Shown: in pieces, positions 15,742 through 18,320 of the stretch
Position numbering within the stretch: the first letter of the stretch is position 1
How the letters are laid out: each line of letters begins with the position of its first letter
Origin: a virus
DNA: 35,037 nucleotides
IMG/VR virus record: IMGVR_UViG_3300034018_000748
Span: 1-35,037 of that record
Direction: 5' to 3' (one strand)
Position numbers and translations under genes: made by a program
The notes under the pieces: model-generated
Databases searched by the model: none
What the model saw: only the letters and a program-made list of their open reading frames with translations
Told to the model about the DNA's origin: nothing

Positions 15742-15917
15742 TTGAGGATTTAACAAGAAAACATAAGCACGTTACATTACCAATTACTAAGGTCATGGAA
15801 TGGTGGCGAAAAGGGCATACGTCAGAGGGTGCAAAGGGTGGATCATTTAATCTTGATCTTTATTTAAATTATTGTGTAGCGCGTGAAAATTATGAAAATA
15901 GGAAAAAAGTACAATAG
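15738..15917 (+). CDS. Small basic hypothetical protein
   Basis: This 59-aa protein (MIEDLTRKHKHVTLPITKVM then EWWRKGHTSEGAKGGSFNLD) starts on an ATGA overlap with the MazG-like gene. It ends 25 bases inside the DnaA-like gene if that gene starts at 15892. It is basic and has a Trp-Trp pair; no family recognised. The tight overlaps are the main support. Confidence 0.55.
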   Translation: MIEDLTRKHKHVTLPITKVMEWWRKGHTSEGAKGGSFNLDLYLNYCVARENYENRKKVQ

Positions 15918-16311
15918 ACCAAAGCTAATGGACAGCAACGTCAGAAAAGTAAGGAATGCAGTACGTGTAATCGAAATGTACGGGTTAGCCGGTAAAAGTA
16001 GAGTTAGAATAACTGTATATCGCCGTTTCTACATGATGGCTAAACTTCGGCAAATAGGATGCACATTTGAAATGATTGGCGAACTATTCAATAAAGATCA
16101 TTCAGCGGTTGTATATGCGGTTAAAAACCACGATTACTTTGTTAAGGTGAACGACTTGCCTTACAAGTTAGCGGTTGAGCCAGTAAAGACTACGTTTAAG
16201 ATCATGAATCAAGAGGTACAGTTGAATATATACAGCGATGTGTTAAGTTGCTTAGACTTCAACGATTTGCTTTTGATCAAAGAAAAAATACATAACGGAA
16301 TGTACAATTAA
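15892..16311 (+). CDS. DnaA domain IV-like DNA-binding protein
   Basis: This 139-aa protein carries, at about residues 41-80, the pattern of DnaA domain IV: an RRF-MM-KLR helix, then IGELFNKDHSAVVYAVKNHD. The DHS(A/T)V..A signature is the one that contacts DnaA boxes in bacterial initiators. No AAA+ domain is present, so it cannot assemble a DnaA filament alone. It may direct replication to a phage origin, or compete with host DnaA. ATG at 15892 is taken; GTG at 15883 and ATG at 15928 are alternatives. Confidence 0.8.
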   Translation: MKIGKKYNRPKLMDSNVRKVRNAVRVIEMYGLAGKSRVRITVYRRFYMMAKLRQIGCTFEMIGELFNKDHSAVVYAVKNHDYFVKVNDLPYKLAVEPVKTTFKIMNQEVQLNIYSDVLSCLDFNDLLLIKEKIHNGMYN

Positions 16312-16316
16312 ATTAG

Positions 16317-16324
16317 TATATTTG
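16317..16324 (+). promoter_or_regulatory. -7 element of the putative small RNA
   Basis: TATATTTG is a full match to TAnnTTTG and begins 6 bases after the DnaA-like stop. No clear TTG is present 19 bases upstream, so the -33 element is weak. A start about 5-7 bases downstream would put the first hairpin at the RNA 5' end. Confidence 0.65.
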
Positions 16325-16328
16325 TAGA

Positions 16329-16421
16329 CGGTTCCATCTCACACCATAGAACCTAAAGAAGTTATTTAAACTCTATAATGAAACTGAGGTGAGATGCAGT
16401 GGATTTATAGAGTTTTTTTTT
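16329..16421 (+). ncRNA. Putative small RNA: two hairpins with complementary loops and a terminator
   Basis: Hairpin 1 is GGTTC (16330-16334) with GAACC (16349-16353). Its loop begins with CATCTCAC (16335-16342). Hairpin 2 is AAACTCTATAA (16368-16378) with TTATAGAGTTT (16405-16415), topped by ACTG/CAGT (16383-16386, 16397-16400) and a 10-base loop that contains GTGAGATG (16389-16396). That octamer is the exact reverse complement of the hairpin 1 octamer, so an 8-bp loop-loop (kissing) helix can form. The stem runs into nine T (16413-16421). A promoter lies upstream, so a free RNA of about 93 nt is likely; a leader or attenuator of the replication genes is the alternative. It matches no RNA family that I know. 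Confidence 0.7.
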
Positions 16422-16439
16422 AATCTAAAAATCAAAGGT

Positions 16440-16763
16440 ATGAATGAAGGCTTTATTTTTGTTTACAAGGGTGTAACATTTGAAGTTGTTAAAAATGGCA
16501 AAAACGCTATAATGCTAAATGCGAAAAGCGATTTTTATGACTGTGAAAGTATTGAGGTTTGGTACAAGAGAATGACTAATGATCGATATATTAACGGATC
16601 ATTTGTGAAAGGAGGTATAAAAAGACCAAGTAACAACGATTATCCATACACTGCACATCAATTTATGCGAAAGCATTTTAAAACGGATGAGGAATTTAAA
16701 GAAGTTGTTTTTAAACGGTTTAATGAATACGAGCAATTGTTAAGACCTAAATCTATTAAATGA
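16440..16763 (+). CDS. Hypothetical protein of the replication module
   Basis: This 107-aa protein (MNEGFIFVYKGVTFEVVKNG) is beta-rich at the N-terminus and helical at the C-terminus (FKTDEEFKEVVFKRFNEYEQ). The ATG at 16440 is chosen because the in-frame ATG at 16394 region would start inside the terminator hairpin of the small RNA. It overlaps the next gene by ATGA. No family recognised. Confidence 0.6.
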   Translation: MNEGFIFVYKGVTFEVVKNGKNAIMLNAKSDFYDCESIEVWYKRMTNDRYINGSFVKGGIKRPSNNDYPYTAHQFMRKHFKTDEEFKEVVFKRFNEYEQLLRPKSIK

Positions 16764-17338
16764 TGAGAAAGGCATTTAACTTTTACCGTAGTTATTACGA
16801 TGTTGCTTTGTTGCTTCCTGAATTAGAACGCGCTGAATTTATCATGTGCATATGCCATGCTCAATTTACTGGTGAATTAATAGAGCCAAAACTACCTATT
16901 GCAAAACTCGCCTACATTGGTCAATTACATTCAATTAAAAAGCAATTGGAAGGTTATAACTATGGTTTAAAAACACCAAAGAAAACTAAACCCTTAAAGG
17001 AACCCTTAGAGGGTGCCTATGAGAGTCCCTTAAAGGAACCCTTACCACAAGAACAAGTACAAGTACAAGAGAAAGAGAAAGAAGAATATAATATAGATAG
17101 CCGCAAAAAAGATTTTGCTGCATTACTTCAACCTTACATTGAGACGTATGGTCGCGAAATGTTGAACGAATTTTATTTCTACTGGACTGAACCTAACCAA
17201 CGTAAAACCAAAATGAAATACGAAATGGAAAAGACTTGGTCAATTGAACGAAGACTAAACACATGGTCAAAACAAAGTGTTAAATTCGGAACGGCAGTAA
17301 GTAAAGCGGAGAAACCTAAATTTGATCCTTATGGATAA
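16760..17338 (+). CDS. Replisome-organiser-like (DnaD-type N-terminal domain) protein
   Basis: This 192-aa protein begins FNFYRSYYDVALLLPELERA, with EFIMCICHAQFTGE, a pattern shared by N-terminal domains of phage replication-initiation proteins related to the DnaD/replisome-organiser group. The middle (about 75-115) is Lys, Pro and Glu rich and disordered, and the C-terminus (EFYFYWTEPNQRKTKMKYEM) resembles the Trp-rich end of those proteins. It would link the origin to the helicase encoded next, which it overlaps by 8 bases. Confidence 0.6.
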   Translation: MMRKAFNFYRSYYDVALLLPELERAEFIMCICHAQFTGELIEPKLPIAKLAYIGQLHSIKKQLEGYNYGLKTPKKTKPLKEPLEGAYESPLKEPLPQEQVQVQEKEKEEYNIDSRKKDFAALLQPYIETYGREMLNEFYFYWTEPNQRKTKMKYEMEKTWSIERRLNTWSKQSVKFGTAVSKAEKPKFDPYG

Positions 17339-18320
17339 CGGATACGAAATAACCAAAGCAAGTGATGTAATTACAAAACTATCTCACTACCGTAACAACT
17401 ACCATGAAAAAGGAATGTACTTGGGATGGGATAAGTTACACGATCACTATTCGATGCAATTAGGCAATGTTACTGATTGGACTGGTTACCCTATGAGCGG
17501 TAAAACTCAGGTGCTAATGGAGTTACTAATGAACACTTCGATGTGGTATGGATGGAGGCACTTGGTTTACTTTCCGGATGTAGGTAGTAATGTTGAAATT
17601 ATTGCCGACCTTATCCATAAAAAAACGGGCAAGAGTTTTAATCCATCTGTAAGCAATGCGATTAGTGATGATGATATTCGCAAAGAGGTCGATTGGATTA
17701 CACACCATTTTTTGGTTCTTACACGAAAAGATGTAAAAGCGAAAATGACACCAATGGAGTTTTGGGATATGGCAGTTAGGATCAAAAACACGGAAGGATT
17801 ACACACGGCATCAATTGACAGTTGGAAAGACCTTAGTCATCCATACGATAAATTTGGAGGTTATGCGCAATATCTTGAATTCGTTTTACCTTACAGAAAC
17901 CAAATCGCAGAGGATAATGATTTACATTTGCACACAATCATTCACCCAAAGCTAACGGAAAAGGAAAACGGTAAACGAAAGCCTCCGGTACCATATGATT
18001 TGAAAGGAGGCTCTGAATGGTTTAACTCGGGCAAGTGCATGATTACGGTACACCGTGAGGATTTGGATAGCGGTATTGCAGAAATTTACTTCAACAAGAT
18101 TAAACCAAGAGCCATTGGTAAGATCGGTAAGATTGATTTACGCTTTGATATAAACCGATTTCGTTACTTTGACATCGAGGTTGAGGATACAATGTTTTTA
18201 CAGAACCATCACAAGATATTTGCAACACCAAAAAATGCGAAAAAGAATATTGAAAAAATGGTTTACTTTAACGAACCACAAACAACTCTAAACCACATAG
18301 TAAAAGATTGCCCATTTTAA
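17331..18320 (+). CDS. DnaB/Twinkle-like replicative ATPase
   Basis: This 329-aa protein has a Walker A motif GYPMSGKT (residues 52-59), a TASIDSWKDL Walker B-like strand near residue 160, and HTIIHPKLTEK, close to the His-containing motif of RecA-fold hexameric helicases of the Twinkle/DnaB type. The primase domain is absent. I start it at the ATG at 17331, after ATG GAT AAC; a TTG 9 bases upstream is also in frame. It overlaps the replisome-organiser-like gene. It probably unwinds phage DNA with host primase and polymerase. An ATP-dependent loader is an alternative. Confidence 0.75.
   Translation: MDNGYEITKASDVITKLSHYRNNYHEKGMYLGWDKLHDHYSMQLGNVTDWTGYPMSGKTQVLMELLMNTSMWYGWRHLVYFPDVGSNVEIIADLIHKKTGKSFNPSVSNAISDDDIRKEVDWITHHFLVLTRKDVKAKMTPMEFWDMAVRIKNTEGLHTASIDSWKDLSHPYDKFGGYAQYLEFVLPYRNQIAEDNDLHLHTIIHPKLTEKENGKRKPPVPYDLKGGSEWFNSGKCMITVHREDLDSGIAEIYFNKIKPRAIGKIGKIDLRFDINRFRYFDIEVEDTMFLQNHHKIFATPKNAKKNIEKMVYFNEPQTTLNHIVKDCPF

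Follow-up and report, generated by a model that had tools for sequence, protein, structure and literature searches.

Between a DnaA-like gene and the replication genes of the viral DNA analysed here (35,037 nucleotides, hereafter the window) lie a promoter-like motif, two hairpins and a run of T. A first reading, made from the sequence alone, proposed that they encode a small RNA whose two loops pair with each other, either within one molecule or between two copies, and offered a regulator of replication, an anti-host sRNA or an attenuator as its role. Two questions follow. Does the loop-loop pairing exist, and what would an RNA of this form do at the head of replication genes?

Architecture and covariation of the RNA

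All the elements named in the sequence-only reading were found where it had placed them, on the plus strand of the window. The promoter element TATATTTG (16317-16324) has the form TAnnTTTG of Bacteroidota -7 elements and is kept in relatives. In Flavobacterium, the sigma-A -7 consensus TAnnTTTG occupies positions -12 to -5 (PMC9723704), a placement that predicts a transcription start at 16329, so that hairpin 1 would begin at nucleotide 2 of the RNA. Judged from promoter spacing and terminator, the leader RNA would span 16329-16421, about 92 nt from predicted start to T-run end. Scans for sigma-70 promoters and terminators were designed around other promoters and gave no information on the locus. 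On the minus strand, a promoter-like motif, TACCTTTG (16434-16441), faces the leader; it was absent from the relatives read and is therefore probably a chance occurrence.

Hairpin 1 (16330-16353) consists of the stem GGTTC (16330-16334)/GAACC (16349-16353) and a 14-nt loop, CATCTCAC followed by ACCATA. The octamer CATCTCAC (16335-16342) is the first kissing strand and the exact reverse complement of 16389-16396. An A-rich, single-stranded linker (16354-16367) leads to hairpin 2 (16368-16415), in which a lower stem of AAACTCTATAA (16368-16378) and TTATAGAGTTT (16405-16415) is separated from an upper stem, ACTG (16383-16386)/CAGT (16397-16400), by a 4x4 internal loop, TGAA (16379-16382) opposite GGAT (16401-16404), whose position is conserved in relatives. 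The second kissing strand, GTGAGATG (16389-16396), lies flush with the 3' side of the 10-nt apical loop. Nine T (16413-16421), the first three also paired in the lower stem, form an intrinsic terminator together with hairpin 2, and a T run is found in all relatives. With both strands of the 35 kb counted, the octamers have two matches, both inside this RNA. Its folding energy is unremarkable (z = -1.7) because the kissing helix lies outside what the folding program can represent; the evidence for the structure is therefore comparative.

Eleven loci were retrieved through the upstream DnaA-like gene, most of which continue into the same RNA with altered loop letters, and two pattern scans yielded more than 100 additional stretches. 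The loop 1 and loop 2 segments have both changed in nearly all true relatives and remain exact reverse complements; the kissing pairs include CATCTCAC/GTGAGATG, GGCTTCAC/GTGAAGCC, GCTCTCAC/GTGAGAGC, GGTCTGAC/GTCAGACC, GCTTCCAC/GTGGAAGC and others. Around these changing loops the plan is invariant: a 5-bp hairpin 1 with a 14-nt loop whose eight kissing bases are flush with the 5' strand; a linker of about 13 nt; a hairpin 2 with a lower stem of 9-12 bp, the 4x4 internal loop UGAA/GGAU, an upper stem of 4-5 bp and a 10-nt loop whose eight kissing bases are flush with the 3' strand; and then the T run. A covariance model (R1) matches the window leader at 16325-16419 with 98 bits.

Among 22 ungapped relatives (the A2 set), all cells of all helices are paired, the kissing helix is intact in 100% and five of its eight pairs are doubly changed; the constancy of GGTTC/GAACC in this set is partly an artefact of the search pattern. 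The covariance model added members with the hairpin 1 stems GGTCT/AGACC, AGTTGG/CCAACT, GTTGC/GCAAC and GTTAC/GTAAC. With such divergent first hairpins included, 43 relatives were aligned structurally, in a fit that took in the nested helices and left out the kissing helix. Double compensatory changes occur in all four helices, at 24 of 28 pairs: four of five in the hairpin 1 stem (100% paired), 11 of 11 in the lower and three of four in the upper stem of hairpin 2, and six of eight in the kissing helix, whose 96.5% pairing is lowered by a few rows that are one position out of register there. Over the whole structure, 98.2% of paired cells are observed to pair against 72.5% after shuffling. 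The covariation score of 0.694 compares with 0.189 for shuffled data and was reached by none of 500 shuffles. The covariation is lost once the partner is slid by 1-3 columns. Compensatory changes, whose absence from relatives would have counted against the first reading, are thus abundant in loops and stems alike. By comparison among relatives, they prove the loop-loop helix, and both hairpins and the terminator-like 3' end are likewise shown.

The helix appears to form within one molecule. Where loop 1 has at least five unpaired nucleotides on its 3' side, as in the window, the linker measures 12-15 nt, and where it has zero or one, 16-22 nt (5-95% ranges). Such narrow lengths for each loop geometry are expected of kissing inside one molecule, and the dimerisation between copies that had also been entertained fits them poorly. 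Since the loop sequence is free and complementarity alone is kept, the partner of each loop is the other loop.

Distribution of the class and its gene context

A descriptor comprising the promoter, hairpin 1, a kissing helix of at least 7 bp and hairpin 2 with its T run recovered 152 distinct RNAs that between them use 56 kissing sequences and in which the spacing from promoter to hairpin varies little (mode 5 nt). Applied to 2331 promoter-like sites, it gave 234 matches against 5 in shuffled segments, but many of these sites had been chosen for such RNAs. The fair part of the comparison is therefore the 35 distinct matches that belong to other subfamilies, and of these a minority are chance matches in AT-rich sequence. 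Most loci were retrieved with patterns that contain the RNA, and the subfamily counts are accordingly a biased census of collections that consist mostly of metagenomic contigs. Type B, the other large subfamily, is marked by hairpin 1 stems GTAG/CTAC and 7-nt kissing loops, with four of seven kissing pairs doubly changed. The same design recurs with unrelated sequence in cultured Flavobacterium phages: 11b (CGGGCAGG/CCTGCCCG), FCL-2 (CATCCAC/GTGGATG) and FCOV-F56, which has two copies (GTAGAGAG/CTCTCTAC and GTAGTGC/GCACTAC). These cultured relatives and the promoter type point to Flavobacterium and its relatives as the hosts.

Internal-loop modules UGAA/GGAU, UGAU/UGAU or AGUA/GAA recur at one position of hairpin 2, and we take them to be tandem G.A or loop-E-like modules. 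One RNA (L263, 14503-14581, minus strand) carries the loop flipped, with GGAT on the 5' side and TGAA on the 3' side, which suggests a three-dimensional module that works in both orientations. About 14 RNAs have an extra small hairpin of varying sequence within the linker, among them L138 (9053-9160), L241, L157, L141, L185, L202, L223, L228 and L230.

No family could be named for the RNA at first reading, and the searches agree. The window has no match in Rfam 15 at gathering thresholds; a permissive threshold on the RNA region gave chance matches only, far below the cut-offs, and seven loci of other subfamilies returned one tRNA and nothing else. A DNA similarity search of the locus against the phage collection found no match, and the control phages 6H, phi13:2, elemoA and B40-8, two of them only partly covered, hold no credible copy. 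One narrow-pattern scan of bacterial genomes gave two stretches, neither scored by the covariance model, so prophages may still carry the RNA. The literature searched contained no description of such an RNA. The kissing-hairpin design shared by many phages of Flavobacterium and relatives is thus probably an unrecognised class of gene-control RNA.

In the window, the leader stands, as first proposed, at the head of replication genes. It had been noted that no reading frame fits; none lies inside the RNA, but an ATG at 16440, 18 nt past the T run, was missed. This ATG opens a 107-aa gene without a family match (16440-16763), followed on the same strand by a phrog_19415 gene (16760-17338), a family found downstream of most family A leaders, and by a phrog_5482 gene (17334-18320) with weaker matches to phage primase/helicases. 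Across the class, 159 of 167 RNAs (95%) have a same-strand ATG reading frame of at least 40 aa 4-52 nt past the terminator, compared with 19% of random positions and 23% of promoter-like sites that lack the RNA. The genes upstream of the RNA differ among relatives. In L006, a 115-aa HNH-like reading frame (520-867) is inserted between the DnaA-like gene and the leader, which remains beside the downstream gene despite it. Comparison of these loci shows that the RNA is tied to the downstream gene, which speaks against the free-standing unit first pictured.

The genes so headed are of several kinds. Family A leaders precede replication genes, type B leaders mostly precede NUMOD4/HNH or GIY-YIG homing-endonuclease genes, and the remaining leaders precede prim-pol, helicase, methylase and RNase H genes. 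A role in regulating replication therefore suits the position of the window RNA but does not extend to most type B copies. RNA hairpins upstream of the free-standing homing-endonuclease genes mobE and segB of T-even phages lower their expression (PMC3014915). Type B leaders likewise precede HNH and GIY-YIG genes; however, the mobE and segB hairpins sequester the ribosome binding site, whereas the leaders described here combine a promoter and kissing loops with a transcription terminator.

Two observations concern the DnaA-like gene itself. Its product in the window (15883-16311) holds only the C-terminal DNA-binding region of DnaA (PF08299). Right after the DnaA-like gene of L008, L009, L010 and L011, the promoter recurs ahead of another RNA, with a GAGAGGG/CCCTCTC terminator whose loop contains CACACACTT, complementary to AAGTGTGTG just past the T run. 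This RNA looks like an alternative attenuator that takes the leader's place.

A candidate kissing-loop attenuator and its alternatives

With a promoter, a terminator and a start codon close behind it, the RNA is most economically read as a transcription attenuator, and of the roles first offered this is the one that gains support. We consider it probable that the RNA acts in cis at the head of its operon, as a leader whose kissing-loop terminator sets how much transcription reads through into the following genes. Host RNA polymerase would initiate at the TATATTTG promoter, and hairpin 1 would form at the extreme 5' end with its loop left open. As hairpin 2 emerged, its loop would zip onto that of hairpin 1 in a helix of 7-8 bp (about -10 kcal/mol); soon afterwards the lower stem would close and transcription would end at the T run. 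The majority of transcripts would halt there as a compact RNA of about 92 nt, and a read-through fraction would express the genes that begin about 20 nt further on. The kissing helix and the non-canonical internal loop may fix this fraction or make it adjustable. Termination and read-through are deduced from the layout, in which the kissing segment of loop 2 would leave the polymerase shortly before the termination decision and thus appears placed to influence it. Kissing may either promote or oppose termination. Two points weigh against this reading: a helix of 7-8 bp is perhaps too stable for a switch and might do no more than stabilise the RNA, and since kissing and the full terminator are, in a simple picture, compatible, termination need not depend on kissing.

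The closest known mechanism is that of the guanidine-IV (mepA) riboswitch, of which the window RNA is not a member. There too, two linked hairpins kiss, the second overlaps the intrinsic terminator of the downstream operon, and kissing alters termination; there the ligand is proposed to bring about kissing, which then obstructs the terminator stem (PMC11611296). By analogy, this precedent backs the idea that a kissing loop may act on a terminator (PMC11611296). Unlike the riboswitch, the phage RNAs have a longer kissing helix, of 7-8 bp, whose sequence changes freely, show no evident conserved ligand pocket and are apparently not ligand-gated; they match no Rfam model and hence have no guanidine-binding sequence match. 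The riboswitch sits upstream of guanidine exporter genes, whereas the phage RNAs precede replication, endonuclease, helicase and methylase genes.

Among the alternatives, an antitermination site survives best, although it is unlikely. A host factor (NusA, NusG or a NusG paralogue) or RNA polymerase would bind the kissed RNA and its internal loop, and polymerase would pass the terminator at the phage's need, as at LoaP or put sites. Three internal-loop modules at one position, once flipped, are what is expected of a three-dimensional recognition module, and LoaP/UpxY-type leaders also combine a structured hairpin with an intrinsic terminator in an operon 5' leader (PMC12691694). However, in LoaP/UpxY-type systems the hairpin that is recognised and the terminator are distinct elements, and there is a gene for a dedicated NusG paralogue, whereas no bound factor is known for the phage RNAs and no gene family is common to all 27 contigs tested (the best occurs in 15). 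A phage-encoded partner is therefore unlikely, and a protein partner, if any, is probably of host origin. The put RNA of phage HK022 is likewise a phage leader in which two hairpins lie side by side close to the promoter; its sequence elements are fixed, it works on terminators further downstream, and it lacks a terminal terminator of its own. Both put and LoaP elements lie upstream of their terminators, whereas in the phage RNAs described here the structure itself is the terminator.

It is improbable that the RNA is a plain terminator or insulator in which kissing merely stabilises the hairpin or shields the 5' end and read-through is unregulated. Every copy does end in a terminator, and the kissing helix is strong (median -10.2 kcal/mol among the descriptor RNAs). 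Yet a terminator serving the upstream genes leaves the promoter immediately before it unexplained, as it does the 8-bp complementarity preserved across many rewrites.

Still less probable is an independent small RNA of about 92 nt that would use its loops to regulate other RNAs, of phage or host, the anti-host role included. Its own promoter and terminator and its compact, stable fold would suit such a function, but the loops vary among relatives, in at least 56 versions, and match only each other; neither octamer has a second copy in the window, and the position is fixed relative to the next gene. The terminated product of the proposed attenuator could additionally act in trans.

Very improbable, finally, is a dimer or ring former in which loop 1 kisses loop 2 of a second molecule, as in the phi29 pRNA, another small phage RNA with complementary loops, whose loops pair between molecules into a packaging ring: the loops are complementary and non-palindromic, so chains could form, and in the 27 contigs that carry at least two RNAs no kissing sequence is shared in 46 pairs (2.7 expected), which would avoid mixing but is a weak test and suggestive only, while the linker is narrow for each loop geometry and points to one-molecule pairing, the copies head several unrelated operons, and the window leader is not adjacent to a terminase gene.

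Implications for phages of Flavobacterium and relatives

For the attenuator reading, a tentative extension is possible: Bacteroidota phages may use kissing-loop terminators of the same shape, each with a private loop code, to head several operons per genome, with RNA folding alone deciding termination in cis and no cross-talk between copies. To our knowledge, this would be the first phage-wide system in which ligand-free loop-loop kissing gates transcription termination. Because members occur in the cultured phages 11b, FCL-2 and FCOV-F56, the mechanism is directly testable. The free loop code makes these RNAs a natural library for the effect of loop-loop kissing on intrinsic termination, and it is a possible part kit for orthogonal terminators. 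For the phages themselves, the finding adds a heavily covarying RNA class, absent from Rfam, to the viruses of an abundant host group whose gene control is poorly known.
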